This document shows, in pieces, positions 418 through 20,336 of a DNA stretch of 20,772 nt; position 1 is the stretch's first letter, and every line of letters begins with the position of its first letter. The stretch comes from a virus: positions 1 through 20,772 of IMG/VR virus record IMGVR_UViG_3300001450_007752; one strand, written 5' to 3'. The position numbers and the translations under genes were made by a program. Below the pieces are notes generated by a model. The model was not told the origin of the DNA. It saw only the letters and a program-made list of their open reading frames with translations, and searched no databases.

Positions 418-1164
418 TTAAATCTTCTTACAGCCTTTAGCCATATAGACTTCATTTAACTTAGATTGCTGAACGTATTGAATTGGATCTTGATAACCTG
501 CATCAATAAAGCCTTTTACCCTCATACTAGATGAAGGTGTAGTAGCATCAGCTAGACCATCCTTACGGTTAGAGTAACAAGTCCATGTCTTACTAAAGTC
601 TACACCTAACCTTATACCTTCTTCAACGATAGCCTCTTTACTCATAATAAGTAGCGGTGCTTCTATTTGAATACGGTTCTCTCTATTAAGGGCGATTAGA
701 GCATTCATTGAGTCAACAAACTCAACACTACCATCCCAATAACCTGCTAATGAATCTACCTCCGCTGCTCCATACCATACTGTATCAGCACCTTTAGACT
801 CTGCATATGCACATCCTATTGTATTAAACAATTGATTACGGAATGGCACATAGCTAACTGGCTGAGCATCACCTGCCATTTTACTGATATCAGGGTTATC
901 GATATCGGTATTAGTAAGTGACGATGTAGGTGCAAGGTGTTGAATAAATCGAACATCAGCAGTATAGTGATCTACTACTATATCAGGAAACTTACTCTTC
1001 ATCGCATCAATCTGATGCTTTACACAGTCAAGCTCACGTACATGACGTTGACCATAGTTATAGGATATAAGGTAAATTTCCTTAAACCCCCTATCAGCAG
1101 CCATATGCAATAGCACAACACTATCCATACCACCACTTATTGATAATACTAACTTTTTATCCAT
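418..1164 (-). CDS. queC: QueC-like 7-cyano-7-deazaguanine synthase, zinc site degenerate
   Basis: The 248-aa protein has the QueC layout. An ATP-pyrophosphatase P-loop SGGMDS lies at residues 10-15, then VPFRNQLF near 106-113 and YGAAEVDSLAGY...EFVDSMNAL near 131-155. The C-terminal TWTCY (193-197) is followed by RVKGFIDAGYQDP. QueC converts 7-carboxy-7-deazaguanine through the amide (ADG) to preQ0 using ATP and ammonia; phages use this path for 7-deazaguanine DNA modification. Oddly, only the first cysteine (C196) of the usual Cys-x(n)-CGxCxxC zinc site remains. The segment 204-216 has Leu, Ala, Thr and Ser where the other three belong. No FolE, QueD, QueE or DpdA gene is in the window. It lies downstream of uvsX on the same strand. 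Family assignment is firm; the exact product (preQ0, ADG or another substrate) is uncertain. Confidence 0.85.
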   Translation of the reverse strand: MDKKLVLSISGGMDSVVLLHMAADRGFKEIYLISYNYGQRHVRELDCVKHQIDAMKSKFPDIVVDHYTADVRFIQHLAPTSSLTNTDIDNPDISKMAGDAQPVSYVPFRNQLFNTIGCAYAESKGADTVWYGAAEVDSLAGYWDGSVEFVDSMNALIALNRENRIQIEAPLLIMSKEAIVEEGIRLGVDFSKTWTCYSNRKDGLADATTPSSSMRVKGFIDAGYQDPIQYVQQSKLNEVYMAKGCKKI

Positions 1165-1265
1165 TCTATATAACCTGCTTGTTGTAAATCTATAATAATC
1201 TCTGCAGTATGAATTATAGTATTCAATACTAACAATGCAATTATAATTTTAGTACTAGTTCTCAT
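1149..1265 (-). CDS. Possible small membrane peptide between uvsX and queC
   Basis: A 38-codon ATG frame starts 11 nt inside the end of uvsX and ends 16 nt inside the start of the queC-like gene, filling the only gap between them. The peptide has one hydrophobic stretch (KIIIALLVLNTIIHTAEIII, residues 6-25) that could span a membrane, then a short polar tail. There is no clear Shine-Dalgarno site, so translation would depend on coupling to uvsX. A longer version of the same frame reaches back to 1343 but is only a shadow of uvsX. It may be a real coupled microprotein or a chance frame in AT-rich DNA. Confidence 0.3.
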   Translation of the reverse strand: MRTSTKIIIALLVLNTIIHTAEIIIDLQQAGYIEWIKS

Positions 1266-2394
1266 CTGAAATAAGGTCTGATAACGGTTTTGGTTTTGCT
1301 TTAACCTCTTCAACTTCATCTGGTAGTTCTTCATCTTCTTCATTAGAGTAAGACCACACTTTACCGATACGATCTTCTACAACTGGTAGAATAATATTCT
1401 CCCAAAGTTCCTTATCCTTACGCCAGTTCTTATAATACCCTAATTTCTTACCGTTTGGTAGCTGATATGTTGCACCTGTACTAATAACAGCACCAACTCC
1501 AACAGCTAAATCGATCATACCATAGTATCTGTCTAGTCCTGATGCAAATGATAGGTACATTTCACCTTCTAGATACTGTTTAATGAATCTATTTTTACGA
1601 GTAAGAGCTCTAATGATAATACCTGCATAGTTTTTCTGAGCTACAGCAGTTTCACCATCCATAGTCTTACCACCGTCTGACTTAACTGGTTTACGCGCTA
1701 GTTGAATAGTAACAGATGGAAGATATACACATGATTTACCACCTGGCATGTTCTTCTCAATAGAAGGAAACAACGCTGCTGGGTTATCATACACGTGATT
1801 AGTACAAAGAATAGTAGTCTGGGTAACTGCGCCTAGATTAGTACAAGTCTGCATAAGAGACTTCATAGCACGAGCATTAGTACCCATATCTGTTGAAGTG
1901 CTATCCTTACCCATACGTGCTAGAGATAGTTCTGATTGCAAATTACCAAGTGAATCAATGGCTATGATAAATTTACCTTCAAGTCCCTTTTCTTTAACTG
2001 AAGTAAGGAACTTATACAACGCATTACGTGTTTGTTCAATACTTATACAAGGTACATATTTGACATTCTTAACATCAAGCCCAAGTCTTTCAGCTCCTTC
2101 AGGGTCGATAGCATTTTCAGTATCGAATATAACAGGAATAAGACCTTCTTTCTGAGCAGCTGCTAGTATTTTCATTACAAATAACGACTTACCTGTCATT
2201 GATTCACCAGCTAACATAGTAACTCGGCCTTTTGGTATACCACCATGAATAGAGCCTGATACAATTGCATTGAGAACATAAGAACCGGTATCGATCCAAC
2301 CACCGACACGGCTTAATGTACTATCTGATAGATAGGTTGCAAACGGATTTATACTATCGATATCATCGAGAGCTTTTTTAACGTCTTTTTCCAT
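1255..2394 (-). CDS. uvsX: UvsX RecA-like recombinase
   Basis: The 379-aa protein has the phage UvsX form of the RecA fold. Near residues 29-41 is RVGGWIDTGSYVLN, like the N-terminal core entry of T4 UvsX. A Walker A loop GESMTGKS lies at 63-70, DTENAIDPEGAERLG at 91-105, and Walker B FIIAIDS at 142-148. It ends in an acidic tail rich in Glu and Asp. UvsX coats single-stranded DNA and drives strand exchange, D-loop formation and recombination-dependent replication. Its mediator UvsY and the helicase UvsW are encoded at the other end of this window. The ATG at 2392-2394 follows a perfect TATAAT at 2401-2406 by 6 nt. No Shine-Dalgarno site is evident, so the message may be nearly leaderless. 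It may be cotranscribed with the queC-like gene. Confidence 0.95.
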   Translation of the reverse strand: MEKDVKKALDDIDSINPFATYLSDSTLSRVGGWIDTGSYVLNAIVSGSIHGGIPKGRVTMLAGESMTGKSLFVMKILAAAQKEGLIPVIFDTENAIDPEGAERLGLDVKNVKYVPCISIEQTRNALYKFLTSVKEKGLEGKFIIAIDSLGNLQSELSLARMGKDSTSTDMGTNARAMKSLMQTCTNLGAVTQTTILCTNHVYDNPAALFPSIEKNMPGGKSCVYLPSVTIQLARKPVKSDGGKTMDGETAVAQKNYAGIIIRALTRKNRFIKQYLEGEMYLSFASGLDRYYGMIDLAVGVGAVISTGATYQLPNGKKLGYYKNWRKDKELWENIILPVVEDRIGKVWSYSNEEDEELPDEVEEVKAKPKPLSDLISDEN

Positions 2395-2400
2395 AAATTT

Positions 2401-2406
2401 ATTATA
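2401..2406 (-). promoter_or_regulatory. -10 box before uvsX
   Basis: On the minus strand TATAAT ends 6 nt before the uvsX ATG, the same short distance seen at the other unit heads. No TTG-type -35 box sits 16 bp upstream, because that space is taken by the terminator hairpin at 2420-2449. It could be an activator-dependent promoter or chance in AT-rich DNA. Confidence 0.35.
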
Positions 2407-2409
2407 TAC

Positions 2410-2449
2410 TAAGATAACAAAACCTCCAGAGAATAATCCCTGGAGGTTT
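2410..2449 (-). terminator. Intrinsic terminator or attenuator upstream of uvsX
   Basis: A perfect 10-bp stem (AAACCTCCAG at 2420-2429 pairing with CTGGAGGTTT at 2440-2449) has a 10-nt loop. On the minus-strand RNA it is followed by UUUUGUUAUCUU. It lies between the small gene ending at 2468 and uvsX, so it would end the first transcript or let only part of it read into uvsX. Confidence 0.7.
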
Positions 2450-2467
2450 GAGTCATTCTAACTTAAT

Positions 2468-2818
2468 TTAATCGTCAAACAATTTAACTACGTTCGGCTC
2501 ACCGGCGGCATCTGATTGTGTTACAGGTGGTTGTGGGTTGTTAATGTTATTATACTGTTGAATAATACGATCATCGAGATCGACATCTGAGAGTACAATA
2601 GATGATTTAGTAAACGTCCAATTGTTCTTTTCTTTATCTGTTAAGAACTCCATAAAGATATATGGAAACGATTGAACCTGTAGTTGACCATTTTCGGCAT
2701 TAGGTTGTGTATGAATAATGACCGGGTTATTAATAGTAACTGTGGTATCTGTCTCTTCAACCGACTTTCCAACAACTGTCCTACCAATATGATCGTTAAT
2801 TGTAATAATATCTGACAT
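2468..2818 (-). CDS. Small conserved-looking phage protein, function unknown
   Basis: A 116-aa acidic protein. The N-terminal half reads as short beta strands (IITINDHIGRTVVGKSV, TTVTINNPVIIHTQPN, LQVQSFPYIFMEFL). The C-terminal part is polar and loop-like, rich in Asn, Pro and Gln, and ends in VVKLFDD. From memory the N-terminal pattern resembles small proteins of marine T4-like phages, perhaps with an Sm-like beta-barrel, but I cannot name a family. It is the first gene of the minus-strand unit reading toward uvsX, and a terminator follows it. A TTGAAA-N16-TAATAT promoter ends 6 nt before its ATG. There is no signal peptide or membrane segment. Confidence 0.75.
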   Translation of the reverse strand: MSDIITINDHIGRTVVGKSVEETDTTVTINNPVIIHTQPNAENGQLQVQSFPYIFMEFLTDKEKNNWTFTKSSIVLSDVDLDDRIIQQYNNINNPQPPVTQSDAAGEPNVVKLFDD

Positions 2819-2824
2819 ATGTAT

Positions 2825-2852
2825 ATATTAGCTGATTTTTTTTGGTTTTCAA
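2825..2852 (-). promoter_or_regulatory. Sigma70-like promoter for the 2468-2818 gene
   Basis: On the minus strand, TTGAAA (2847-2852), a 16-bp spacer and TAATAT (2825-2830). The -10 box ends 6 nt before the ATG at 2816-2818, so the transcript would start at or next to the start codon. A run of eight A lies in the spacer. Confidence 0.45.
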
Positions 2853-2855
2853 CTA

Positions 2856-2883
2856 TTGTTTTTTTATTTTTTTGAACTAATTA
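2856..2883 (+). promoter_or_regulatory. Putative promoter of the glycosyltransferase operon
   Basis: TTGTTT (2856-2861), a 16-bp spacer that is almost all T, and TAATTA (2878-2883), ending 6 nt before the ATG at 2890. The boxes match consensus only weakly. However, the spacing and the distance to the start codon repeat those of the other promoters here, and the operon needs a start in this 71-bp divergent gap. It stands back to back with the promoter at 2825-2852. Confidence 0.4.
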
Positions 2884-2889
2884 ACGTAT

Positions 2890-4155
2890 ATGAGTCCTTA
2901 TAAAGGTAAGACAGTGTTTGTTCAAATAGCAGCGTATAGAGATAAGGAACTTTTACCTACTCTTAAAGATATGTTAGATAAAGCTGACGAGTCAGATACC
3001 TTACGTATCTGTATTGCTTGGCAACATAGTAAAAAAGATGAATGGGATCAACTAGATGAATACTTACTTGATGATAGGTTTACTATTATTGATTTAGACG
3101 CTGCAAAATCCAAAGGAGCGTGTTGGGCTCGTAATTTAATACAGCAAGAATACAAGAAGGAGGATTTTACGTTACAAATAGACTCACATCATAGGTTTGT
3201 AGAAGGTTGGGATACTATTCTTAAGAATACATTCTACTCTTTACAGTTATCTGGTGTTAAAAAGCCTTTACTTACAGGATACTTACCATCTTATGATCCA
3301 GAAACAGAAGAAAAGCTTGACGAGCCGTGGAGATTAAGATATCAACGCTTCGCTCCAGAAGGTCCATTACACACTATACCTGAAACTATACCTGATTGGA
3401 AAGATCACACTGGACCAGTACGTGCAAGATTCTATTCTGGCCACTTCTGCTTTACTTTAGGTAAGTTTTCAAAAGAAGTACAGCACGATCCTAAATTATA
3501 TTTTCATGGTGAGGAGATAACTATCGCTGTTAGAGCATTTACACATGGTTATGATTTATTTCACATGCATAAACCTATTATGTGGCACCATTACCACAGA
3601 AGCGGAAGTTCAAAACACTGGGATGACCATAAACAGTGGGTAAAACTAAACAAAAAGTCCTATGCGCGTGTACGGAAGCTATTAGGTATTAACGGAGAAG
3701 AGTTGCAACCTAATGAAATTGGTGGTTATGGTTTAGGTGAAGTAAGATCCTTAGATGACTATGAGAGATATGCTGGAATCCGCTTTAGCGATAAGGGTGT
3801 TCAGCAATATACCCATGATAATTTTTACCCGCCCAACCCTATAATCAAAAAAGGTTATGATGAGTCTTTCTTGAACATGTTTAAGTTTTGTGTTGATGTA
3901 AATAAAAGCAGTCTTAACGGTGAGGAAGATTTTGTGTTCTGGGCTTTAGCTTTTGAAGATGAGGATGGTAATGAAATGTACAGAAAAGACGTAACTGATA
4001 CAGAGATTAAAAATTCATATAATAGTGAGACTGACGCTTATCAAATTTGGCGTGAGTTTACAACAAAGGAGTTACCTTATAAATGGATCGTATGGCCACA
4101 GTCTAAAAAGAATGGTTGGCTAGATAGAATAGAAGGAATTATTAATAATGGATAA
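2890..4155 (+). CDS. GT60-like (Skp1 GlcNAc-transferase type) glycosyltransferase, copy 1
   Basis: The 421-aa protein begins with a GT-A sugar-transferase fold: FVQIAAYRDKELLPTLKDML at residues 9-28, then KGACWARNLIQ and QIDSHHRF. The last is the DxH form of the metal-binding DxD motif used by the GlcNAc (GT60) family. Further family blocks are ARFYSGHFCF, FHGEEITIAVRAFTHGYDLF and HKPIMWHHYHR. The founding enzyme moves GlcNAc onto hydroxyproline of Skp1. After about residue 300 there is an extra C-terminal region ending in WPQSKKNGWLDRIEG, also present in the next protein. It is the first gene of the plus-strand operon and overlaps the next by 8 nt. No signal peptide is seen, so it probably acts in the cytoplasm. 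Acceptor and donor are not determined. Confidence 0.85.
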   Translation: MSPYKGKTVFVQIAAYRDKELLPTLKDMLDKADESDTLRICIAWQHSKKDEWDQLDEYLLDDRFTIIDLDAAKSKGACWARNLIQQEYKKEDFTLQIDSHHRFVEGWDTILKNTFYSLQLSGVKKPLLTGYLPSYDPETEEKLDEPWRLRYQRFAPEGPLHTIPETIPDWKDHTGPVRARFYSGHFCFTLGKFSKEVQHDPKLYFHGEEITIAVRAFTHGYDLFHMHKPIMWHHYHRSGSSKHWDDHKQWVKLNKKSYARVRKLLGINGEELQPNEIGGYGLGEVRSLDDYERYAGIRFSDKGVQQYTHDNFYPPNPIIKKGYDESFLNMFKFCVDVNKSSLNGEEDFVFWALAFEDEDGNEMYRKDVTDTEIKNSYNSETDAYQIWREFTTKELPYKWIVWPQSKKNGWLDRIEGIINNG

Positions 4156-5389
4156 AAGAACGATTTTACTTCACCTACCCGCTTATAGAGATCCTGAGTT
4201 AATACCGACAATAAAGGATGCTTTAAACAATGCAGAGTTTCCAGAAAGAATACACTTCGGTATTTGCTTGCAATATAATCCAGATGATGGTTTTGATGAT
4301 TTATCTGAATATGAGAAAGATAAGCGCTTTAAGATAAAAAAAATACACTATACAAAAGCTAAAGGTCTACCATACGCTCGAACCTTAATTAATGATAAGT
4401 TACTTACTGATGAAGATTATGTGTGTCAATTAGACTCTCATCATAGATTTAGTAAAAACTGGGATAGTACTTTAATATCTTGGCATGATGAATTAGTTAA
4501 CGAAGGGTATAACCCAATTATAGGTGGTTATTCACCTATGTATAACCCATATAATGATCCTGAAGAACGAGTGAAGGAACCTTGGATGTCTTTGGCTGGT
4601 TGCTTCTACCCTTTCGGGACTATCTTTATTAGACCTGGTGGTATACCCAATTGGCAAGATCTTAAATCACCTATACCTGCAAGATTCTTAAGCGGTCATT
4701 TCGCTTTCGGAACTAATAAGTGGGCGAAGGAGGTTAGACACGATCCAAATATTTTCTTTGCGGGGGAAGAACTAAATCTTTCGGTTAGATCTTTTACTTA
4801 CGGTTATGATCTATTTCATCCACATAAAGTGGTTATATGGCATGCTACTATGAGAGAAGAACGAAGTGGAATGCTAGTTTGGGATGATCAACACAAGAGG
4901 GGCGATGATCAGTGGTGGAAGGGTAATGATGTAGCACGTTCAAGAATAAGGCAGTTGTTAGGTGTAGAGGATAATGGGCATAATTTAGGTGATTATGGTC
5001 TTGGTACAAAAAGAACACTTCGCGATTATGAAGTTTACTCGGGTATAAATTTTAAAAATCGCGCATTTCAACAGCATACTATTGACAACAACCTTCCACC
5101 TAATCCTAAAGATAGTCCGTGGAAAAATTCTTATTATCATTTAGTAAATATAACACCTGATATTTTACCTGGTAAGGATTACGAGCATATTTTAGTTTCT
5201 TTTGATGATATAGAAGGTAAAGGTATACATCAAACATACATTGCTGATGATAGATTAGTACAGTTTTTACAGGGTAGCACTATTCACTATGAAGAGATGT
5301 TTTGCACACCTAATAAGCCAGTTAAAGTTGTATATTGGGGTTTTTCGAAAACAAAGGGCTGGGCAGAAAGGGTAGAATTTAGTTTATGA
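4148..5389 (+). CDS. GT60-like (Skp1 GlcNAc-transferase type) glycosyltransferase, copy 2
   Basis: The 413-aa tandem paralogue of the preceding protein shows the same blocks in the same order. These are LLHLPAYRDPELIPTIKDAL near the N-terminus, AKGLPYARTLI, QLDSHHRF, ARFLSGHFAF, FFAGEELNLSVRSFTYGYDLF and HKVVIWHA. It has the same extra C-terminal region ending in WGFSKTKGWAERVEFSL. Clear divergence between the copies suggests an old duplication and different acceptors or sugars. A purine-rich AGAAGGA about 10 nt upstream could serve as a ribosome site. Its ATG lies inside the end of copy 1, and its stop overlaps the next gene by 4 nt (ATGA), so translation is probably coupled. Confidence 0.85.
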   Translation: MDKRTILLHLPAYRDPELIPTIKDALNNAEFPERIHFGICLQYNPDDGFDDLSEYEKDKRFKIKKIHYTKAKGLPYARTLINDKLLTDEDYVCQLDSHHRFSKNWDSTLISWHDELVNEGYNPIIGGYSPMYNPYNDPEERVKEPWMSLAGCFYPFGTIFIRPGGIPNWQDLKSPIPARFLSGHFAFGTNKWAKEVRHDPNIFFAGEELNLSVRSFTYGYDLFHPHKVVIWHATMREERSGMLVWDDQHKRGDDQWWKGNDVARSRIRQLLGVEDNGHNLGDYGLGTKRTLRDYEVYSGINFKNRAFQQHTIDNNLPPNPKDSPWKNSYYHLVNITPDILPGKDYEHILVSFDDIEGKGIHQTYIADDRLVQFLQGSTIHYEEMFCTPNKPVKVVYWGFSKTKGWAERVEFSL

Positions 5390-6117
5390 GTATAAAGGTA
5401 AGTAATAATAAATTAGCTGATATAGGCAGATATATAAATTTAAATAAGAGGAAAGATAGAAACGATTATTTTAAGAATCAATTACTAAATACAGGTGTAA
5501 CCGGTGTTAATCGAAAATCTGCTAAGGATAGTAACTATGGGGGTGTTAGTGGTTTAATTGAAACCACGTTTGATCTCTATAAAGAATTTCTTGAGACTGG
5601 TCAAGATACTATGGTGGTTTTTGAGGATGATTGTAAGTTTTTAAAAACGTTTAAAGAAAATAGTCAACAAATATGTGCAGATATTTTAAATACAGAGTGG
5701 GATATATTTTGGCTTGGTGGCCATAACAGAAAGCCGGTAAGGTATATTGGTAATAACTGCTGTCAGGTATCATCAATTAATTACGCGCAATCGTATATTA
5801 TATCTAAAAATTTCGCTGAATCATTAGTTGCAGCATTTTCAACGTTAGATAAGCAATATGTAGATATATTTGATGTTCATCATGCAGGTATCGATGAAGT
5901 TTTATGTTTATATGCATATAGTAAGGAGTTAGTTAGAGATGCTATACCAACTGGATTTTATAATTTAGATCAGCCATTAGATAAATATAAACCAAAGTAT
6001 CGAGCGTTATGTTATAAAGAACCACTTACAACTCAAGTTAACGATACATCAGACATAACTCATGTAGAAACATCACTCGATGAGTGGTTAGCTTTACCAT
6101 ACAATATTGAAAAATGA
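5386..6117 (+). CDS. GT25-like glycosyltransferase
   Basis: The 243-aa protein has the hallmarks of family GT25: RYINLNKRKDRNDYF near residues 15-29, GVSGLIETTFDLYKEFL, then MVVFEDDCKF (the EDD metal site), DIFWLGG and YAQSYIISKNFAESL. GT25 includes bacterial lipooligosaccharide galactosyltransferases (LgtB type) and the collagen hydroxylysine galactosyltransferases. The length is close to the bacterial members. The sugar and acceptor cannot be read from the sequence. It is linked by ATGA overlaps to both neighbours and has no good Shine-Dalgarno site. The DNA here looks more AT-rich than the replication genes; one 60-base row counted by hand was about 22% GC against 38% for a row in the polymerase gene. 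Confidence 0.8.
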   Translation: MSIKVSNNKLADIGRYINLNKRKDRNDYFKNQLLNTGVTGVNRKSAKDSNYGGVSGLIETTFDLYKEFLETGQDTMVVFEDDCKFLKTFKENSQQICADILNTEWDIFWLGGHNRKPVRYIGNNCCQVSSINYAQSYIISKNFAESLVAAFSTLDKQYVDIFDVHHAGIDEVLCLYAYSKELVRDAIPTGFYNLDQPLDKYKPKYRALCYKEPLTTQVNDTSDITHVETSLDEWLALPYNIEK

Positions 6118-6836
6118 AAATACTTACAACAACATGGTCTTACGAGGATAAGTTTGATATAACATCTACTACTTTATGGAAATCATTTATAAAAAACAAT
6201 AAAGCGGATGACTTCATACATATACACTATAATCGTAAACAATTTGATACACTAGAACAGGAATTTAAACAGCGGTTTGACTATCAGTATGAATATATCT
6301 TATATAAGATTTTTTTAATGAAGGACTTTGTTAAAAACAACGTACATGATGATATAATTTTTTGTGATGCAACTGATACTGCATGTTTATATTGTATTGA
6401 TAATATTAAACCAACGGAAGACGGTATTATGTTCTCGCGAGAAATTAGTCAATACCCTAGTTCATTAGGTGATTGGGGAGATGAAGCACAATGGCAACAG
6501 AATCAAATAAATAACAAAATATTTTTAAATGCAGGGTTATTTGTATCTTCTACCGAAAATTATATAAAATTACTAGATAGCGTTATTGATAATATTTTAG
6601 TTAAAGATTTAAAATCTTTTGGCGGTGATCAGGGAGTATACACTTACCACTATTTATTAAAACATAATCCAGAAATAGTTTTAGATGAAAATAGTAATAT
6701 ATTCTTATCTACCTTTAATAGAAATATTGAACACTTTAAGAAAGAAGAACTACCTTGCTTTATACATGACAACGGTTTCGATTATGGCTCACCACGTTTT
6801 ATAGAAAACTTTAATTTAATTTCAAATGAAAAGTAA
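6114..6836 (+). CDS. PLOD-type GT-A glycosyltransferase, copy 1
   Basis: The 240-aa protein follows the order of motifs in the glycosyltransferase domain of procollagen lysyl hydroxylases (PLOD/LH3). It has MKILTTTW at the start, YKIFLMKDFV near 64-73, IIFCDATD near 81-88 (metal-binding acidic motif), IFLNAGLFVSS, GGDQGVYTYHYL, NIFLSTFN and a final CFIHDNG. In LH3 and the mimivirus enzyme L230 this kind of domain glucosylates galactosyl-hydroxylysine. Only the transferase domain is present; there is no hydroxylase domain. It is a distant paralogue of the gene at 7623. It overlaps the upstream stop by 4 nt and the next gene by 11 nt. Confidence 0.7.
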   Translation: MKILTTTWSYEDKFDITSTTLWKSFIKNNKADDFIHIHYNRKQFDTLEQEFKQRFDYQYEYILYKIFLMKDFVKNNVHDDIIFCDATDTACLYCIDNIKPTEDGIMFSREISQYPSSLGDWGDEAQWQQNQINNKIFLNAGLFVSSTENYIKLLDSVIDNILVKDLKSFGGDQGVYTYHYLLKHNPEIVLDENSNIFLSTFNRNIEHFKKEELPCFIHDNGFDYGSPRFIENFNLISNEK

Positions 6837-7626
6837 AATAGTATTTACTATAACTGCTAAAGGTGAAAAAATAAGAGGTGATCTTTTGCATCTATTAAAT
6901 GATTTAAGAAATTTAGATCTACCAGTTTTTGTTTTGACTGATTTATCTATAGACTTAGATTATTTAAGATATGATAATGTACAACTAGTTGAGTGTAAAA
7001 AGAAGTGGTCAGATTTTGATAAACATGTAATAGTAAAGTATGCTTTTAATCATACAGATGCAGAGTATGTTTATAGTTTAGATGCAGATAGTCGATTTGT
7101 AAATTACAGGCCGGAAAAATTTAACAAACAATCATTTTTAACGTTATTAGATAGTATTAGTTTTGATGTTTTATGTTCATGGGATTTAGGTGAAAAAACA
7201 AACGCGGAGTGGCATTTAAGACCTGTTAATCCAAATGAGCATCGTGAGACTGGTATGCGTTATTATAATTATGGGTTTGATTCTGTAATAAAATTTTTAC
7301 GTAATGATTTACCTAATTACAATAAATCTATAAAAGAATCTAACCCACACTTACCTTTAGAAAATGCTATGATTTTTAAGCGGAGTTTAAAATTGTTTGA
7401 GTATTTGGATAATTTATTAAAACTAAATAAAATTATAGTAAAGGAGCATGAGTTATGTGGTAGAGATACCGGACCCAGCACTGGATTTGCAATGGCTTTA
7501 TATGTAGATAAATATGATATCAATATACATATATCACCTATTGCTTGTCAATTTTTTTCACCTAACTTCGTAAATGAAATGCCTCTCTGGAATGTATATC
7601 CTAAAAATTATAACATATACGTATGA
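6826..7626 (+). CDS. GT-A fold glycosyltransferase, family uncertain
   Basis: The 266-aa protein has a GT-A pattern: FTITAKGEKIRGDLLHLLNDL at the N-terminus, then PVFVLTD. A beta strand leads into YVYSLDADSRF, a DxD metal site near residues 85-87. The C-terminal half contains GRDTGPSTGFAMALYVDKY and ends with a hydrophobic PLWNVYPKNYNIYV. The overall layout recalls GT6- or GT8-like enzymes, but I cannot fix the family. There is no signal peptide. It lies between the two PLOD-like genes and overlaps both, so it is surely part of the same translation-coupled operon. Confidence 0.65.
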   Translation: MKSKIVFTITAKGEKIRGDLLHLLNDLRNLDLPVFVLTDLSIDLDYLRYDNVQLVECKKKWSDFDKHVIVKYAFNHTDAEYVYSLDADSRFVNYRPEKFNKQSFLTLLDSISFDVLCSWDLGEKTNAEWHLRPVNPNEHRETGMRYYNYGFDSVIKFLRNDLPNYNKSIKESNPHLPLENAMIFKRSLKLFEYLDNLLKLNKIIVKEHELCGRDTGPSTGFAMALYVDKYDINIHISPIACQFFSPNFVNEMPLWNVYPKNYNIYV

Positions 7627-8354
7627 AAAAATATTGCTTACTTTCAACGTTTTACGGGTGGGAAATCGACAAACCCTCACTTCAAGAAATTAAAACCAAA
7701 TTAAACTACGATGGTGATGTAAATGATATATATTTAAATTTCTCTAATACTTTTGACCCATGGCATACAGATCACTTAAATGTTGGATGCTCAGGTCGCG
7801 CAGATTTAATACATGGCAAAATTATAATGCTTAAGGAGTTTATAAAAAATAATATACTTAATAAGTATGAATATCTCTGCCATGTAGATTATACAGATTT
7901 AAGCTTTCATAGATCTTTCTGCGAAATGATGGTTAAATTTATAAATTCAGGAGAAGATTTTATAATTTCAACAGAGAAAACAGCGTGGCCAACTATTGAT
8001 GTTATTAATACATGGGTAGATTATGATGTTAAAGAAAGTGAATTTACTTTTATAAATTCGGGTAGTATAATATCAAAAACGGAAGTTATGTATAATTACC
8101 TAACTAAATTAGAAGCATTACTATTTAGCACGAAATTAGATTTTAGGGATGATCAGGGGGTATGGCAATACTATAATTTACATATAGATTCTTTAAATAA
8201 AGATCAGGACTGTACGTATACATTTTCCACAGCCTTATTAGATGATACATATTACAATAGTATTAATGGTAAAGTAATAACTAAATTTAAAACTCACCCA
8301 TATATTATACACGATAATTCTAGCTTTAGCCTTAACTTAAGAGATATAAATTAA
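7623..8354 (+). CDS. PLOD-type GT-A glycosyltransferase, copy 2
   Basis: The 243-aa protein is a second member of the PLOD glycosyltransferase-domain type. Motifs are KYCLLSTFYGW near the start, GKIIMLKEFIKNN, YLCHVDYTDL (acidic metal site), FTFINSGSIISKTEVMYNYL, RDDQGVWQYYNL, TFSTALLDD and PYIIHDNSS. These line up with LNAGLFVSS, DQGVYTYHYL, FLSTFN and CFIHDNG of the gene at 6114. It has an unusual insertion near residues 40-58 (NFSNTFDPWHTDHLNVGCS). The start overlaps the upstream stop (ATGA), and its TAA shares one base with the next ATG. No hydroxylase domain. Sugar and acceptor unknown. Confidence 0.65.
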   Translation: MKKYCLLSTFYGWEIDKPSLQEIKTKLNYDGDVNDIYLNFSNTFDPWHTDHLNVGCSGRADLIHGKIIMLKEFIKNNILNKYEYLCHVDYTDLSFHRSFCEMMVKFINSGEDFIISTEKTAWPTIDVINTWVDYDVKESEFTFINSGSIISKTEVMYNYLTKLEALLFSTKLDFRDDQGVWQYYNLHIDSLNKDQDCTYTFSTALLDDTYYNSINGKVITKFKTHPYIIHDNSSFSLNLRDIN

Positions 8355-8989
8355 TGATTGACGATAACATACATAATAACGAAATTAGCGGTTGGTTTGG
8401 TTACAAGGGAGTAACAACTATGCAGGTACCAGCTATTAACGTACCATTTAAAGAGTTGTTTAATACAATTAAACCTCGACGTGTGCTAGAAATAGGAACT
8501 TCAAGTGGTGGTCTTACTTTAATGTTACGTGATATACTAGATGATTTAGGGTTAACTGATTGTGATCTTCGATCGTATGATACTAATCCTGATCATGATA
8601 GAACAATACTCTTTAATAGTAATTTAAATTATGATTTCCGACTTAAAAACCTGTTTAATCAACCGTACTCAGACTTATGTGATGTAAACGGTCAAGAGGT
8701 AATTGATTATATTGCTGAAGAGGGTCCGATAATTGTACTTTGCGACGGAGGTTGTAAAATAAATGAATTCAATATATTATCAAAATTTTTAAAGCCAGGG
8801 GATATAATTATGGCTCATGATTATGCGCCAACTGTGGAGTATTTTGAATCGTATAATAAAAATAAAATATGGAACTGGTGTGAGATTTTTGATAACGATG
8901 TAGCTGATGCATGTAATAATAATAACTTAATACCATATATGGCAGATGAATTTACCGCTGTTGTTTGGTTGTGTCGTAAAAAGAATTAA
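8354..8989 (+). CDS. Class I SAM-dependent methyltransferase-like protein
   Basis: The 211-aa protein has VLEIGTSSGGLTLML near residues 44-58, the glycine-rich motif I of class I methyltransferases. An acidic residue follows in SYDTNPD (motif II region), then IIVLCDGGCKINEFNILSKFLKPGDIIMAHDY at about 126-157. The latter DGG...HDY pattern resembles the cephalosporin-hydroxylase/CmcI and macrocin O-methyltransferase group, where Asp and His help bind metal. In this setting a sugar O-methyltransferase that caps the glycan is the likeliest role, by inference from neighbours. The N-terminal GWFGYKGVTTMQVPA may be an acceptor-binding lid. It sits between glycosyltransferase genes with no spacing. 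Confidence 0.7.
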   Translation: MIDDNIHNNEISGWFGYKGVTTMQVPAINVPFKELFNTIKPRRVLEIGTSSGGLTLMLRDILDDLGLTDCDLRSYDTNPDHDRTILFNSNLNYDFRLKNLFNQPYSDLCDVNGQEVIDYIAEEGPIIVLCDGGCKINEFNILSKFLKPGDIIMAHDYAPTVEYFESYNKNKIWNWCEIFDNDVADACNNNNLIPYMADEFTAVVWLCRKKN

Positions 8990-8990
8990 C

Positions 8991-10670
8991 ATGAATAATC
9001 AAACAATAGTAACTGGGTTATGGAATATTAATAGACCTGGTAGAGATTTTAATCACTATATAGAAGCGTTTAAACGGTTTCTAGATATACCTCAAAATTT
9101 ATTTATTTACATACCTAAAGAGTATGAATATTTGGTATGGGAAAAACGATCACCTGATAATACTTATGTGCGTGTTTATGAACTTGAAGATGTCAAAAAA
9201 TTATATGAGCCTTTTTGGGATAGGACGCGGCAAATAAGGCAGAGTGGGGAGTGGTTAGATAGTACGGGTTGGTTAAAGGATTCCCCTCAAGCGGTTTTAG
9301 AGATGTATAATCCTATTGTACAATCTAAAATGTTTATGCTTAATGATGCTTCTATTATGAATCCATTTGATACGGAATATCATTTCTGGGTTGATGCTGG
9401 TATAACAAATACAGTACCTCATGGGCATGTAGCAGATGATAATCTATTAGATAAGCTATCTGAATATAGCGAGCCCTTTCTGTTTTTAAGTTACCCATAT
9501 ATTGCAGATAAAGAGATACATGGGTTTAATTATGAGGCTATGAATAGAATAGCTGAGAATGAGGTTAAATATGTTTGTAGAGGGGGAATATTTGGTGGTA
9601 AAAAACAAGCTATTAATAACGCTAATGCAACATACTACTCACTACTTGATCATACACTAGCACAAGACTTAATGGGTACAGAAGAAAGTGTATTTACGTT
9701 AATGTCGTATATGGAGCCAAACATTTATAGACGATTTGAACTAGATGCGAATGGTCTTATTGGTAAGTTTACTCAAGCTATAAAAGAAAATAACGTAACA
9801 TTAAGTAAGGCTTCAGCGTCTATTGTACAACAAGTTGATGAAGTAAACTATAAAGAAGTTAAAACTAATCTTTACATGTTGACGTTTAATTTTCCAGAGC
9901 AAGTACTTCACACAATAGAGTCGATGAAAAAGACACCAGAGTGGCTAACCATTCCTAATTTATTTTTACTCGATAATTCCACCGATAATACTGCCAAAAT
10001 TAAAAATCAAGAAATAGCAAGAGAGTATAACTTTACATATATTGACTTAGGCGGTAATACCGGTATATGCAGGGGTAGGCAGGCCGCGGCAGATCATTTT
10101 AATAACTCAGATGCAGACTTTATGTTTTTCTTCGAGGATGATATGACATCTAACCCACCAGAACTAGAAGGTCAATTTTGTAGAAATGGGTTTAGAAAAT
10201 ACATACCTAATCTTTACAACACAGTACATAAAATAATGTTAGAGAAAGATTTCGACTTTTTAAAGCTCTCCTTTACTGAAGTATACTTTGATAATGATAA
10301 GCAATGTTCATGGTATAATGTACCGCAAAATATCCGTACAAGGGATTGGCCTGATTATGATAAACTACCTATAACTGGACTTGATCTTAATTGTCCTAGA
10401 ACGAAATTTAATCATATATACACTAAAGATGATTTATCGTTTATAAGCGGTGAAGTTTACTACGCGAACTGGCCTATGATAGTCAGTAAAGAAGGTAATA
10501 GAAAGATGTTTATTGATACTAAGTGGGCTCATCCATTTGAACAAACTTGGATGTCACATATATACCAGTTAACAAAAGAAGAAAAAATAAGACCAGCAAT
10601 ATTGCTGGCCTCACCTATTTGGCATGATCGTATAAAGCACTACCAGCCAGAAGAAAGAAGGGAAAACTAA
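8991..10670 (+). CDS. Two-domain glycosyltransferase: HtrL/YibB-like + GT2
   Basis: The 559-aa protein starts at the ATG one base after the upstream TAA; an in-frame ATG at 8946 would overlap that gene by 44 nt and is less likely. Residues 1-250 resemble HtrL/YibB/WlaTC proteins: TIVTGLWNINRPGRDFNHYI at 5-24 and FWVDAGITN near 132-140. Residues about 290-559 form a GT2-type domain with NLYMLTFNFPEQVLHTIESM, LFLLDNSTDNT, NTGICRGRQAAADHF, DFMFFFEDDM (EDD at 382-384) and a late WAHPFEQTW. Both halves would be sugar transferases, so one chain may add two successive sugars. It is the last gene of the operon, and its stop overlaps the stop of the convergent gene by 3 nt. Confidence 0.8.
   Translation: MNNQTIVTGLWNINRPGRDFNHYIEAFKRFLDIPQNLFIYIPKEYEYLVWEKRSPDNTYVRVYELEDVKKLYEPFWDRTRQIRQSGEWLDSTGWLKDSPQAVLEMYNPIVQSKMFMLNDASIMNPFDTEYHFWVDAGITNTVPHGHVADDNLLDKLSEYSEPFLFLSYPYIADKEIHGFNYEAMNRIAENEVKYVCRGGIFGGKKQAINNANATYYSLLDHTLAQDLMGTEESVFTLMSYMEPNIYRRFELDANGLIGKFTQAIKENNVTLSKASASIVQQVDEVNYKEVKTNLYMLTFNFPEQVLHTIESMKKTPEWLTIPNLFLLDNSTDNTAKIKNQEIAREYNFTYIDLGGNTGICRGRQAAADHFNNSDADFMFFFEDDMTSNPPELEGQFCRNGFRKYIPNLYNTVHKIMLEKDFDFLKLSFTEVYFDNDKQCSWYNVPQNIRTRDWPDYDKLPITGLDLNCPRTKFNHIYTKDDLSFISGEVYYANWPMIVSKEGNRKMFIDTKWAHPFEQTWMSHIYQLTKEEKIRPAILLASPIWHDRIKHYQPEERREN
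10578..10611 (-). terminator. Intrinsic terminator of the minus-strand replication unit, inside the glycosyltransferase gene
   Basis: A perfect palindrome CCAGCAATATTGCTGG lies at 10593-10608, extended by outer pairs. On the minus-strand RNA the stem is followed by UCUUAUUUUUUC. It sits about 60 nt past the stop of the 10667-10969 gene, within the coding end of the convergent glycosyltransferase. On the plus strand no U tract follows, so it should act on minus-strand transcripts only. Confidence 0.6.
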
Positions 10671-10969
10671 ATAGTAATCTTTTTAGCTAACTCTTCACAC
10701 TCTTGAATTGCTTCTTGTGCATGCTTAGACAAGTATGTAGACTTATCTGACGCGTGTATAAGTGTTTCTCTATATGTAATAAGAATACGTCGAGCGGCTT
10801 CGATAACAGGGGAGTTAATCGCACCGTCTCCTGGGTCATTACCCTCTGCGACTCTCTTAACAATCCTTAAAATTTCTGCTGTTCCACGTGCTCGACCTCG
10901 CCAGTATGCTGGGTGAGCTTTTTGAGTACCATCATCTGCTGGTCTATCTAAGTAACTTGTTTCTGCCAT
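10667..10969 (-). CDS. 100-aa hypothetical protein after DNA polymerase
   Basis: The ATG at 10967-10969 gives 100 residues. An alternative TTG at 11002 would reach back into the polymerase gene and is less likely. The sequence starts with a polar MAETSYLDRPADDGTQ, then has a likely helical middle (HPAYWRGRARGTAEILRIV, positively charged) and helical C-terminal parts (SPVIEAARRILITYRETL; AQEAIQECEELAKKI). There is no motif I can name. It is base-rich and better balanced in GC than the glycosyltransferase genes, like its replication neighbours. A TTGATT-N16-TAAGTA arrangement ends 5 nt before the ATG, so it may have its own promoter besides read-through from the polymerase. Possibly a small replication-associated or virion protein; not determined. 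Confidence 0.7.
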   Translation of the reverse strand: MAETSYLDRPADDGTQKAHPAYWRGRARGTAEILRIVKRVAEGNDPGDGAINSPVIEAARRILITYRETLIHASDKSTYLSKHAQEAIQECEELAKKITI

Positions 10970-10985
10970 GATACTACTTATACCC

Positions 10986-13547
10986 TTATGCAAATAAATC
11001 AAATAGCTCTACCTGAACATTATCAGATGGTTTACGTATAGTCCAGTTAACATTATCATAAAACCGTTGAATAGACTGGAACAGAATTTTCTCGAACATC
11101 TTTTCATAGTCCGGCTTAAAAATATCAGCAAATTCCACAGGATAATCATACTTAAAGCCAATAGTACCCAACCCAAACTTATTAGGCTGCTCAACGTACA
11201 TGTAACGGACTTTGTCTCCTGAGCTGATGTCTTCATACTTATTTCCAGTATTTAGTTTCTCTAGCATCATATTGTAGTAATAAGCGGACTTAGCATGAAT
11301 AGGCATACCTTTACTAGTCTCAAATCCGCGACACTTAACTGCATGCTTTTCATATCCACGTACTCCCATAACGAAAGCTAATTCTTCTGGACCTAACGAC
11401 TTAAATGTATCATATGTCTCGTTCAAGACAGCATTGGTCTCCTTAAGAGACTGCGTTGTCAGCATGGTCTCGATGATCTTCTTTGCATACGGTTTGATTG
11501 CATTAGGCATGGTTGTACGTACAACCTCCACGCCTGTATACTTAAACTTATTTTCTTTAATACCCTCATCATCTAGAATATGCATCACGTATCGCTTCTT
11601 CTGCAAGAACACTCCTATATCTGCAATACATTCACGCTTGAATATAAAGCGGCTATCTTTAGTTAGTAGAGCTTTTCTTGCCCAGTTATTAATACCTTCG
11701 TTTAGAAAGTCTTCAATATTTTGAATCTCGTCATATGTCTCTTGATGTATATCTTCACCATCCCAGAACTTAACAAGATCGTTTTTAACTAGCGGTGCGA
11801 TAGAGGCATACGAGCTGTCTGTATCATTATAAATAATACATTGATCTAGATCATAGTTTGATATATCAGGTAACCTGCCCTTAATATACTCTTTAATAAG
11901 TTCATTAGAGTACTTAATAACTGCTTGACCAGTTAACGTTACTGAGGCTGCAATGTCATCATCACCAATAGGCGCGCGTTTGTTACCCATATAACCGTAG
12001 CACGAGTTGATCAAAATCTTGATAACCATCTGCTCAGTATTAAGTCGCTCAACTTCATACTTAAGCTCAGTATTATTAGGATCCTTCTTAAGTTTCTGCT
12101 TACACTTGAATAGCTTCTTCTTAATAACTACTCGCTTGTTAATATAATACTCTAAGAACTCTGGTATGATACCTTTTTTCTTTTGTGAGAATAATATACC
12201 TGCTTTAGATAGTGCGCAATCTTCATCTTTAAGGAACTTTGCAAATGCAGGTCTATCTAAACTAAACTGCTTACCAGAAACATGCTGTATAACAACTTTA
12301 TCTTGTAAGGTATCTATTTTACCTATCTTAGTTTCCGGTGACGTATTGAGCGATATCATAACGTTCGGATATAGTGAGTTCGCGTCGAACGATACAATAT
12401 GTTCTTTAAAACCAGACTTCGGTTCTGCAACATAAGCACCTGGATTCTTACCCTCTACTTCTGCTCTTACAAACGTAGAAATAATCTCACCACGTTTTCG
12501 AGCTCGTATACAAAGCGCACCGTTAATCACTTGAATAGTGCCCATAGCACCTTCAAGCGTAGTTAACCCAACATATGATAGCATACGCAATAGAGGCATA
12601 TACTGAAGTTTCTCTTCCAACCTAACTAGCAGGTTAACATCTTGAATGTTATAATCAATAAACGTATCCCAATCCTCTTCAGATAGTTGCGCGAGACTCA
12701 TACCCCCGTAATCTACTTTATTCTCACCAAGCTCTAGTTCGCCGATAGCATCGAGTTTATATGACTCACGTAACTTCAAGCAAAAGCGTCTATAAATATC
12801 CAGAAAGTCTAAGCATGCAATACCGTCAATATAATAACGCTTTTTTTCTTGTCCAAACTGACCTCGCATCATTCGGAAGAATACGTTACCTACAGGGGAC
12901 ATACGTTTTACATATTCGTTACCTAAAATACGCTCCATTCGGTTAACGATATATGGAATATCAAAACCTTCACTGTTCCAACCAGACAAAATATCCGGAT
13001 AATCAGCTTCAAGGTATTCTAGGAACTTAATAAAGAGCTCGCGCTCGCTATCACAATGTACATATATAAGATCATCACGGCCGGCCCCTGTATAGGGCTT
13101 TAACCCAAACGTGTGAAACTTCTTACTAAAGTTATCGTAACAAGTTATAACGTTTACTGTATGAGTAGGGTCATCTATATCCGGAAATGAATCAACAGAA
13201 AAGGTCTCAATATCTAAAAAACAACACTTAAGAGGTTGTTTACTAAACTCTGGATTTTCATTCTCTTGCCAAAACATATCAAGCAAGTATTGCTGTGATA
13301 CAGGCGTATTCTCAAAGACTCTTTTAACTCCTGAATCAGTTAAGAACCTGCTTCGGTTATATGAGTTGCTAAACTGCTTCTTCTTAAGTTTAGTACCGAA
13401 AATTGACGTCTTATCACCTCGAGGGTCCTCTGTATAAAGGTAAGGTTCGAACGATGAGTTATACGAAATACGATTACCATCTTCATCCCACGTAAAGAGA
13501 GTAATTACACTCTCACGGTTATTGTATATTACGTTTCTATATGACAT
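10986..13547 (-). CDS. 43: Family B DNA polymerase (T4 gp43 type)
   Basis: The 853-aa protein carries the proofreading exonuclease motifs DIE (112-114, Exo I), WNSEGFD (190-196, Exo II) and YNIQD (299-303, Exo III). The polymerase motifs are SFDANSLYP (386-394, motif A), the NSCYG stretch (514-518, motif B) and YNDTDSS (573-579, motif C with catalytic Asp575 and Asp577). KKRYVM follows further on. The C-terminus VELFDLFA (846-853) resembles the peptide by which T4 gp43 docks on the gp45 sliding clamp. Length is close to T4 gp43 (898 aa). It replicates the phage genome. A TTGTGG-N16-TATAAT promoter lies just upstream, and a glycosyltransferase gene separates it from gene 46. No intein or split is seen. 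Confidence 0.97.
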   Translation of the reverse strand: MSYRNVIYNNRESVITLFTWDEDGNRISYNSSFEPYLYTEDPRGDKTSIFGTKLKKKQFSNSYNRSRFLTDSGVKRVFENTPVSQQYLLDMFWQENENPEFSKQPLKCCFLDIETFSVDSFPDIDDPTHTVNVITCYDNFSKKFHTFGLKPYTGAGRDDLIYVHCDSERELFIKFLEYLEADYPDILSGWNSEGFDIPYIVNRMERILGNEYVKRMSPVGNVFFRMMRGQFGQEKKRYYIDGIACLDFLDIYRRFCLKLRESYKLDAIGELELGENKVDYGGMSLAQLSEEDWDTFIDYNIQDVNLLVRLEEKLQYMPLLRMLSYVGLTTLEGAMGTIQVINGALCIRARKRGEIISTFVRAEVEGKNPGAYVAEPKSGFKEHIVSFDANSLYPNVMISLNTSPETKIGKIDTLQDKVVIQHVSGKQFSLDRPAFAKFLKDEDCALSKAGILFSQKKKGIIPEFLEYYINKRVVIKKKLFKCKQKLKKDPNNTELKYEVERLNTEQMVIKILINSCYGYMGNKRAPIGDDDIAASVTLTGQAVIKYSNELIKEYIKGRLPDISNYDLDQCIIYNDTDSSYASIAPLVKNDLVKFWDGEDIHQETYDEIQNIEDFLNEGINNWARKALLTKDSRFIFKRECIADIGVFLQKKRYVMHILDDEGIKENKFKYTGVEVVRTTMPNAIKPYAKKIIETMLTTQSLKETNAVLNETYDTFKSLGPEELAFVMGVRGYEKHAVKCRGFETSKGMPIHAKSAYYYNMMLEKLNTGNKYEDISSGDKVRYMYVEQPNKFGLGTIGFKYDYPVEFADIFKPDYEKMFEKILFQSIQRFYDNVNWTIRKPSDNVQVELFDLFA

Positions 13548-13557
13548 CTACGTCATT

Positions 13558-13585
13558 ATTATAGCATAGTTCCTTATTGCCACAA
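13558..13585 (-). promoter_or_regulatory. Putative promoter of the DNA polymerase gene
   Basis: On the minus strand, TTGTGG (13580-13585), a 16-bp spacer and a perfect TATAAT (13558-13563). The -10 box ends 10 nt before the polymerase ATG, giving a leader of only a few bases. The -35 box lies in the end of the upstream glycosyltransferase gene. Confidence 0.45.
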
Positions 13586-14779
13586 CGGTATATATTTTCT
13601 ATTTGAGTCACCAAATTTCGTGTTTAGTGCTTCTAAATGAGAGCCAATATTTGGCTCTAATTCCAGAATACGCTTTGCACCAATATCTCTTAATGTATAA
13701 ACGCTCTTATAATATTTAGAACGGTTCTTCCAATCTAAGATCGAGTCAACTTTATCAGAGAGCTCTTGTACTGAACCGAACTTCAGACTAGATGGTGCAG
13801 TATAATATGTTTCCATATCTTGACACAAACACGGTATGCCTAAATTACATGCTTCAATAAATTTAATATCTGATTTGGCTTTATTAAAGCTATTATTCTG
13901 TAACGGTGCTATCATTAACTGCGCATTAAGGTTCGCAATAAATTGAGGGTACTGTAATAAGTTTTGCCATCTATAAAATTCTATCTTACCACTAGTAACT
14001 AAATCAGCTAGCTGGGGTGGATACGCTCCTACAAAAATCCATTGATATTTATCAACAGTCGCACGTACATAGTCTCTTACACCTTCAAAGTCATCTTTGC
14101 CTCCAACCTTATTATCAACATCATAATGAGCGCCAGAACCTGTATACAATATACGCGGTTTCTTTTTATTTATATCAAAAGATTGAACAACTTTACGGCC
14201 ATTGAATTTATTACCCAACCAAAAGTCTGGTACAAAATTAGGTATAACACTTATTTTATCTTGACCAGTCCGCTTCTTATATAAGTCTCTCATATATGGA
14301 CAAGTAACTGTAACTTCATCAACTAAATTGATCATCTCGATACAATTAGATCTTATTTCCTCTGTATCAAAAGCAAACTTAAATTTATTATAATCAGGTA
14401 TATCTTCTTTAAACACTACATCATCAACCTCATAAATAATTTTAAAACCAGCCTCTTGTTGTATTTGTTTAAGGAACTTTAAAAATTGTAATTGTGCGGA
14501 TGAAGCTTGTCTTTGTAATTTAACTGCTTTAAGGTCCTTATAAAAACGAGGATCAGATACCATCGCTGTTAAAGAGTGGGATATACCAACACCTGTAGCA
14601 TTTATAACTTGCTCTGGCCATAAAATACGCCAATGACCACAACCAGATAAATCCGCTAGATAATTAAGATATCTTGGCATGCCAGCCTCTCTTGGTTGAG
14701 GCTTTTTTACAGGTATTTGTGGTGATTGTGGAAATGGGGACACAAACGGTGATTGTGGGAATGGTGATGAATTAATCAT
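13574..14779 (-). CDS. GT4-like (GT-B fold) glycosyltransferase within the replication unit
   Basis: The 401-aa protein has a GT-B layout. The N-terminal domain begins after a Pro-rich leader, with GCGHWRILWPEQVINATGV at 46-64 and YEVDDVVF near 116-123. The C-terminal domain has ISVIPNFV, RILYTGSGAH, WIFVGAYPP, LNAQLMIAPLQ and KSDIKFIEACNLGIPCL (302-318), the Glu-rich donor-binding region of GT4 enzymes. Residues 5-20 carry a repeat (SPFPQSP twice, 9 residues apart) ahead of a KKPQPR linker. It would move an unknown sugar to an unknown acceptor; DNA base, virion protein and cell envelope are all possible. Its place between genes 46 and 43 is unusual. A TTGATT-N16-TAATTA promoter ends 7 nt before the ATG. 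Confidence 0.75.
   Translation of the reverse strand: MINSSPFPQSPFVSPFPQSPQIPVKKPQPREAGMPRYLNYLADLSGCGHWRILWPEQVINATGVGISHSLTAMVSDPRFYKDLKAVKLQRQASSAQLQFLKFLKQIQQEAGFKIIYEVDDVVFKEDIPDYNKFKFAFDTEEIRSNCIEMINLVDEVTVTCPYMRDLYKKRTGQDKISVIPNFVPDFWLGNKFNGRKVVQSFDINKKKPRILYTGSGAHYDVDNKVGGKDDFEGVRDYVRATVDKYQWIFVGAYPPQLADLVTSGKIEFYRWQNLLQYPQFIANLNAQLMIAPLQNNSFNKAKSDIKFIEACNLGIPCLCQDMETYYTAPSSLKFGSVQELSDKVDSILDWKNRSKYYKSVYTLRDIGAKRILELEPNIGSHLEALNTKFGDSNRKYIPLWQ
14721..14768 (-). repeat. 27-bp direct repeat encoding the Pro-rich leader
   Basis: Two imperfect copies start at 14721 and 14748 (plus-strand core GGTGATTGTGG, then AAATGG or GAATGG). They encode the repeated SPFPQSP unit at the N-terminus of the GT4-like protein and look like a small in-frame tandem duplication. 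Confidence 0.7.
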
Positions 14780-19953: not shown

Positions 19954-20336
19954 GAGGTAAATTTGAATCTCAGTTCTTTAAGTTGTTATCAGAAGATTTA
20001 GCTGAAGAAAATATATCTGTAGGTGGTGGAGCTCTTGGAACAGCGGCGCAAGGCGGTACTATCTTTAATCCAGATAGTCAGATTAACTCAGCAGATACAT
20101 ATGCGCCTGGTGATGCAAGAAAACCAAAGATGTTAGGTGGTGTTCAAACAAGAAGTGGTTCCGCATCTAAGAAAAAGAAAGATAAAAAGAAGAAAGGTGT
20201 AGATGGAGTATTCTTAACCGGGGAAGAAGACGAAGAGGGTATGTGTCCAGATGCTTGTTGTGGAATGCCGATAAAAGAGTGTAAGTGTGGTCCAGAATGT
20301 GAACATTGTAATTGTTACGAGATCAACAATGGCTGA
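19941..20336 (+). CDS. Small late protein with Lys-rich linker and Cys-rich C-terminus
   Basis: The ATG at 19941 gives 131 aa; an upstream ATG at 19842 lies inside uvsY on the other strand and is rejected. The N-terminal part (ESRGKFESQFFKLLSEDL) is probably helical. A Gly- and Ala-rich middle contains INSADTYAPGDARKPKM, followed by a KKKKDKKKKG linker and an acidic GEEDEEG. The last 30 residues hold eight Cys and one His (CPDACC, CKCGPEC, EHCNC), which looks like a metal-binding cluster. The family is not recognised. Its position behind a late promoter suggests a virion or assembly protein. It overlaps the next gene by 8 nt. Confidence 0.75.
   Translation: MQESRGKFESQFFKLLSEDLAEENISVGGGALGTAAQGGTIFNPDSQINSADTYAPGDARKPKMLGGVQTRSGSASKKKKDKKKKGVDGVFLTGEEDEEGMCPDACCGMPIKECKCGPECEHCNCYEINNG

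Follow-up and report, generated by a model that had tools for sequence, protein, structure and literature searches.

What does a phage build with eight coupled genes that mostly resemble glycosyltransferases, and on which acceptor does it build? The question is raised by the IMG/VR record IMGVR_UViG_3300001450_007752, a 20,772-base stretch of marine T4-like phage DNA that we analysed as a whole and call the window, and within it by the eight open reading frames (ORFs) at 2890-10670, here called the cassette. Questions that concern a whole genome were addressed in related records. An earlier, sequence-only reading had proposed a glycan on hydroxylated proline or lysine of a virion protein. We think it likely that the operon is a phage-encoded cassette for mucin-type O-glycosylation, acting on threonine or serine of a fibre-associated protein and giving a variable, serotype-like glycan.

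The GT60 enzymes and their probable mucin-like partners

The first two genes had been assigned to GT60, and strong matches to the Pfam GlcNAc domain PF11397 bear this out (GT60a 6.5e-68, 230 bits; GT60b 3.7e-50, 172 bits; cut-off 21). DxD/DxH motifs have a metal-binding role, and in an alignment of 40 GT60 sequences the motif is conserved as DSH, with D98 and H100 invariant and S99 present in at least 90%. A structure model built from 40 sequences reached a predicted local distance difference test (pLDDT) score of 94, and when its fold was searched against the PDB the best 35 matches were all polypeptide GalNAc-transferases (E down to 9e-10), with GlfT2, RmlT and COLGALT1 ranking below them. 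The template modelling (TM) scores of about 0.5 between the model and these enzymes stand for a common fold and not for close kinship, and searching the PDB by GT60 sequence gave no meaningful match. As modelled, GT60 looks like a polypeptide transferase. The GT60 enzyme TcOGNT1 of T. cruzi forms GlcNAc-alpha-O-Thr on mucins (PMC9472816), and the enzyme that modifies hydroxyproline in Skp1 is related to the T. cruzi enzyme (PMC8724618).

A candidate acceptor gene adjoins many other cassettes. It encodes hundreds to thousands of residues of threonine-proline or serine-proline (TP/SP) repeat, of the TPTNTVTPTITPTN or SISATPSVTPS type (L089, L075, L036, L080, L091, L058, L059 and others), and in one 288-kb record such repeats, at 107949-131189, add up to over 5,000 residues. 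For a sample independent of GT60, viral contigs were scanned with a DNA pattern for TPTxTPTxTP; 73 of the 80 loci found are genuine TP/SP-rich frames. GT60 is present in 22 of 50 records of at least 20 kb chosen in this way and in 0/42 control records chosen by a polymerase (PolB) motif (Fisher 1.3e-7); for records of at least 40 kb the counts are 20/33 and 0/22. Sampling from the other side, the strict TP DNA pattern occurs in 20 of 39 records selected by their GT60 or HtrL-GT2 and in none of the 42 PolB controls, and 13 of 64 de-duplicated cassette loci have a mucin-like ORF, against 0/78 control loci, whose average length is smaller. GT60 and mucin-like genes are thus associated in both directions of sampling.

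The T4-like lineage of the window shows the same pairing at a distance. Two contigs (G009 and G022) break inside a TP/SP array at one syntenic place, which lies about 17 kb upstream and on the same strand as the cassette, and a third (G143) has the same pair of array and cassette at the syntenic place. Across 17 loci with a neighbouring primase at least 78% identical and at least 2.5 kb covered beyond it, 16 have a TP/SP ORF at this site. Counting upstream from the mucin gene, the second gene encodes a tail collar/fibre homologue, so that the mucin gene lies by tail-fibre genes. Complete versions (L415, about 1,570 amino acids) may, with weak Pfam support, be read as a segment with a GDSG serine-protease-like motif together with propeller-like and Calx-beta-like repeats. 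Since a record of the closest group, L591, ends in a TP frame at the syntenic place, the window's phage very probably has a mucin gene outside the window. The DnaB of L591 is 99% identical to that of L005, a near relative of the window, and the frame in which it ends reads ...KTPSVTPSKTPSVTPS...ATPASS*, or, in a longer reading, ...KTPSVTPSKTPSVTPSKTPSVTPSKAPSVSPTPTATPASS*.

Wet evidence comes in one piece, from phage XacN1, in which proteomics revealed at least two glycoproteins (PMC5852040). This isolate carries a GT60 (ORF334), a carbamoyltransferase and an HtrL-GT2, and close to them a giant ORF that is in part rich in Ser/Thr/Pro. Its authors proposed ORF334 as a candidate glycosylating enzyme; the text of their paper, as far as it was accessible, draws no link from the glycoproteins or ORF334 to a mucin (PMC5852040).

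The acceptor and its alternatives

Several points weigh against a mucin as the acceptor. The mucin gene is not within the window, and in the T4-like lineage it lies about 17 kb from the cassette. GT60 is missing from 28 of the 50 TP-chosen records, many of them short fragments. The PolB controls lack phylogenetic matching, and near-duplicates occur among the records; the P values of the association (1e-5 to 1e-8) therefore overstate independence. Three cassette-free relatives (G172, G174 and G175, L611-L613) carry TTPPYTTPPY stretches of 87-147 residues without GT60. Finally, that sugar sits on the TP repeats is something we infer, and neither donor nor acceptor specificity of GT60 is legible from its sequence.

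One could take the TP/SP repeats to be no more than flexible linkers and explain their occurrence with GT60 by the common descent of a few big-phage lineages; large phages are where both features are most frequent, and the phylogenetically unmatched controls leave room for this. We regard it as unlikely. The pairing recurs in unrelated lineages, namely T4-like marine phages, the XacN1/RAS14 jumbo phages and several others. Counting only T4-like contigs that span both sites, since contigs break inside the repeat, GT60 is found in 3/3 with a long array and in none without one. At the mucin position cassette-free relatives have no long array, or only short TTPPY-type or T-rich stretches, and because they carry these short ones a T/P-rich stretch alone does not imply GT60. 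The pairing also extends to bacteria: in three Bacteroidota contigs, for which there is no matched control, a TP/SP-rich and apparently exported protein is encoded divergently from the GT60 gene. In three Burkholderiales, again with no matched control, a protein that we read as VgrG-like, the spike of type VI secretion, ends in a TP or EPST tail and is encoded some 4 kb away from GT60. Several high-GC hits of the TP scan in bacterial loci (e.g. L480, L483, L502, L507) were set aside as apparently non-coding frames.

A glycan attached to hydroxyproline or hydroxylysine in a collagen-like protein of the virion, as had been proposed, calls for a 2-oxoglutarate (2OG) hydroxylase, which had been expected elsewhere in the genome. 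This was not borne out: the P4H-type oxygenase domain PF13640, to which the hydroxylase search in the relatives was confined, occurs in 3 of 49 related cassette records, is absent from the other 46 and is found in neither of the complete genomes of XacN1 and RAS14. Enzymes related to GT60 do initiate the hydroxyproline glycan of Skp1, and the LH3-type transferase domains of the cassette are real, although the hydroxylase domain of PLOD is missing. The suggestion to look for collagen-like Gly-X-Y proteins was partly rewarded, as such proteins exist in G021 (861-10585), L040, L082 and L086, and the G021 cassette is the most window-like among the large records, with GT25, both PLOD-type genes and the methyltransferase; however, they are (Gly-Thr-Ser)n proteins, and repeats so dense in Thr/Ser need no hydroxylation. 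Because P4H-type oxygenases are rare, GT60 includes a mucin-Thr enzyme and cassette phages encode huge Thr/Ser-Pro repeats, a hydroxylated anchor is not supported and we judge it very unlikely, while a phage structural protein stays the likely carrier. The missing partner of the cassette is probably a mucin and not a hydroxylase.

Phage DNA bases could be the substrate as well, as glycosylated hydroxymethyl-pyrimidine or 7-deazaguanine. T4-like relatives glycosylate DNA, a queC homologue lies nearby (418-1164) and variable sugar cassettes would also suit escape from restriction. The GT60 fold, however, matches polypeptide transferases, GT60 goes with TP repeats, and Tet_JBP exceeds its cut-off in 0/46 records, dCMP hydroxymethylase not having been searched. 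The sequence-only reading had given a DNA-base glycan as a bare possibility, and we share this low estimate: the idea is quite improbable.

Constant ends and a swapped interior

The expected coupling of eight genes holds: all ORFs are on the plus strand (Table 1), the seven junctions overlap or almost touch, and the gene order is seen again in other contigs, so that the operon is not a chance arrangement. A scan of viral contigs for HtrL-GT2 gave 142 candidate relatives, 80 of which were fetched. Most loci with sufficient flank carry GT60, in one or two copies, on the 5' side and HtrL-GT2 on the 3' side or close to it; in some, a GT60 copy follows HtrL-GT2.

Near relatives were defined by at least 97% identity to the window in gp43, uvsX or queC. 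In the four closest ones whose contigs include GT60a, this gene is 91-94% identical, and GT60b is 81-91% identical in two, with a different GT60 copy in its place in two others. None of the near relatives has the window's PLOD-type genes or its fifth gene, and a GT25 relative occurs in just one, at 30%. In near-identical relatives, then, GT60a and HtrL-GT2 stay and the interior genes are swapped. Four relatives at 74-78% in gp43 (G172, G174, G175, G184) are without any cassette, and in cassette-free relatives the counterparts of the two small flanking ORFs are adjacent, 48-80 bases apart. Because the ends are conserved, the middle is swapped and a clean site without cassette exists in distant relatives, the cassette is a replaceable unit at a fixed site. 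At L008:6424-9709, between GT60 and the methyltransferase, interior genes run in the opposite direction, an arrangement suggestive of block insertion.

At the right edge of the window, 20287-20727 encodes a SegE-like GIY-YIG homing endonuclease (1.4e-30), and ORFs of the same cluster directly follow HtrL-GT2 in some other phages (c14 in L044, L048, L059). This endonuclease is perhaps a means of cassette movement.

Table 1. Features of the cassette and its insertion site, with bacterial proteins encoded near GT60
Feature	Position	Strand	Remarks
GT60a	2890-4155	+	PF11397; phrog_24687; first gene, constant among closest relatives; putative polypeptide transferase of alpha-GlcNAc type, initiating
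GT60b	4148-5389	+	PF11397; paralogue of GT60a, 38% identity
GT25-like transferase	5386-6117	+	PF01755; phrog_2835 8e-11; variable interior
PLOD/LH3-type glycosyltransferase 1	6114-6836	+	joint profile with the 7623-8354 family; variable interior
Enzyme-size protein, perhaps GT-A	6826-7626	+	no match above cut-off; variable interior
PLOD/LH3-type glycosyltransferase 2	7623-8354	+	joint profile with 6114-6836; variable interior
Methyltransferase-like protein, candidate for glycan capping	8354-8989	+	weak Methyltransf_24; semi-variable
HtrL_YibB-GT2 fusion	about 8991-10670	+	PF09612 + PF00535; conserved 3' bookend
Small conserved ORF	2468-2818	-	left edge of insertion site
Small conserved ORF	10667-11002	-	right edge of insertion site
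Bacteroidota TP/SP-rich proteins by GT60	L452:6947-7813, L454:6519-7700, L451:2687-3442	-	
VgrG-like protein, TP- or EPST-repeat C-terminal tail	L481, L484, L501, about 13.1-15.5 kb	-	

The labels first given to the interior enzymes fared unevenly. The GT25-like assignment is marginal, a partial stretch scoring 24.6 bits against Glyco_transf_25 (cut-off 24). The two PLOD-type proteins have no Pfam match each alone; since they are related to each other (27% identity, E 2e-5) and their joint profile matches the glycosyltransferase domain of human LH3/PLOD3 (6wfv, E 4.2e-8), this label is right. A structure model of a PLOD-type protein had a pLDDT of 50 and was not used. The protein between them had been called another GT-A enzyme, which could not be confirmed, as Pfam, PHROG and other profile searches gave no match above cut-off; a relative at 85% exists in L020. 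The resemblance of the next protein to a methyltransferase is there but weak (Methyltransf_24 8.9e-4, below cut-off), and relatives of it at 31-89% occur in many other cassettes. The HtrL-GT2 fusion was correctly recognised, with matches to HtrL_YibB (3.8e-9; 37 bits, cut-off 24.1) and GT2 (9.5e-8). It scores 36 bits against NCBIfam TIGR02192, whose equivalog cut-off is 264.9, and judged by this the HtrL domain of the window appears to be a distant relative and not YibB itself.

Surface polysaccharide loci also contain members of the GT25 and HtrL families. The enzymes might accordingly remodel lipopolysaccharide (LPS), capsule or another surface glycan of the host, for superinfection exclusion or receptor change, and other cassettes do contain carbamoyltransferases and apparent NDP-sugar genes. 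Yet Pfam and profile scans of the window's proteins revealed no lipid-carrier initiating transferase, flippase or polymerase, the GT60 fold is that of a polypeptide transferase, and the association with mucins would be left unexplained. We consider a host-surface role unlikely.

The cassette sits between uvsX/queC and the gp43-gp46-gp47-gp55-uvsW homologues, which from gp43 to uvsW are on the opposite strand. To the left of the cassette, the queC homologue is 97% conserved in near relatives; it may serve 7-deazaguanine DNA modification or queuosine synthesis and has no visible tie to the glycosyltransferases. Positions 3-350 are the C-terminal end of an ORF of about 570 amino acids, 67-69% identical in relatives whose adjoining genes are 97% identical, and thus another fast-changing protein of unknown function. 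Between gp43 and gp46, 13574-14779 encodes a GT4-like glycosyltransferase (phrog_7162, 2.8e-23) that is 94% conserved in near relatives and also present in cassette-bearing sisters; it could be a constant extension enzyme.

A proposed pathway and known systems

With mucin-type O-glycosylation as the preferred explanation, GT60 would add the first sugar, probably alpha-GlcNAc from UDP-GlcNAc, to Thr/Ser residues in a long TP/SP-repeat protein, whose gene would lie with those for the tail fibres in another part of the genome. Next, the exchangeable GT25-like, two PLOD-type and methyltransferase enzymes would extend and cap the glycan, as would the constant HtrL-GT2, and the glycan would be completed in the cytoplasm before assembly. 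On the virion this would yield a glycosylated stalk or brush, with sugars that may differ in structure between near-identical phages in the manner of an O-serotype; an adaptive role is supposed as well. As relatives have both a swappable GT60-led cassette and mucin genes by tail-fibre genes, it is probable that they produce a changeable sugar coat of their own. We also lean, with less assurance, towards a wider statement: that tailed phages of a broad class produce mucins of their own, as giant fibre-associated Thr/Ser-Pro proteins O-glycosylated by a GT60 pathway of the protist/animal mucin type and a horizontally exchanged glycan cassette, with different coats on near-identical phages.

Mucin-type O-glycosylation is mostly regarded as a eukaryotic trait. 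If the proposal is true, bacterial viruses possess a glycoprotein system that is both complete and swappable, with a bearing on adsorption, on diffusion in mucus and biofilm, on escape from recognition and on the origin of GT60/GT27. XacN1 is an isolate with reported glycoproteins for which the enzyme and a candidate acceptor can now be named. In the open literature, subscription papers being outside this coverage, we found no report on a phage GT60 or a phage mucin.

The closest known enzymes are those of CAZy GT60, namely TcOGNT1/2 of T. cruzi and the Skp1 Gnt1 and a Golgi enzyme of Dictyostelium. They have in common with the phage proteins the PF11397 domain, a polypeptide GalNAc-transferase-type fold without a recognised ricin-type lectin domain and, as the likely acceptor, a Thr/Ser-Pro mucin, which for the phage enzymes is our conjecture. 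In contrast to them the window's enzymes, whose activity is putative, are phage-encoded, duplicated and placed in an operon with swappable extension enzymes, and the phage proteins carry an extra C-terminal region of about 95 residues, mostly beta. The glycosyltransferase domain of LH3/PLOD, which transfers glucose and galactose to collagen, shares profile homology with two interior genes; unlike LH3, these phage genes are without a lysyl hydroxylase domain and lie in a variable cassette, and many relatives have none. In XacN1 and in mycobacteriophages with virion glycoproteins, phage glycosyltransferases are thought to decorate virion proteins, as we propose for the cassette; what differs is the proposed acceptor, a giant TP/SP mucin by the tail fibres, the initiating GT60 and the constant ends around a variable middle. 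This last arrangement has its counterpart in bacterial O-antigen clusters. While the cassette is phage-borne and a lipid carrier, flippase or polymerase was not seen in the window, the clusters resemble it in that constant flanks enclose exchangeable central transferase genes.

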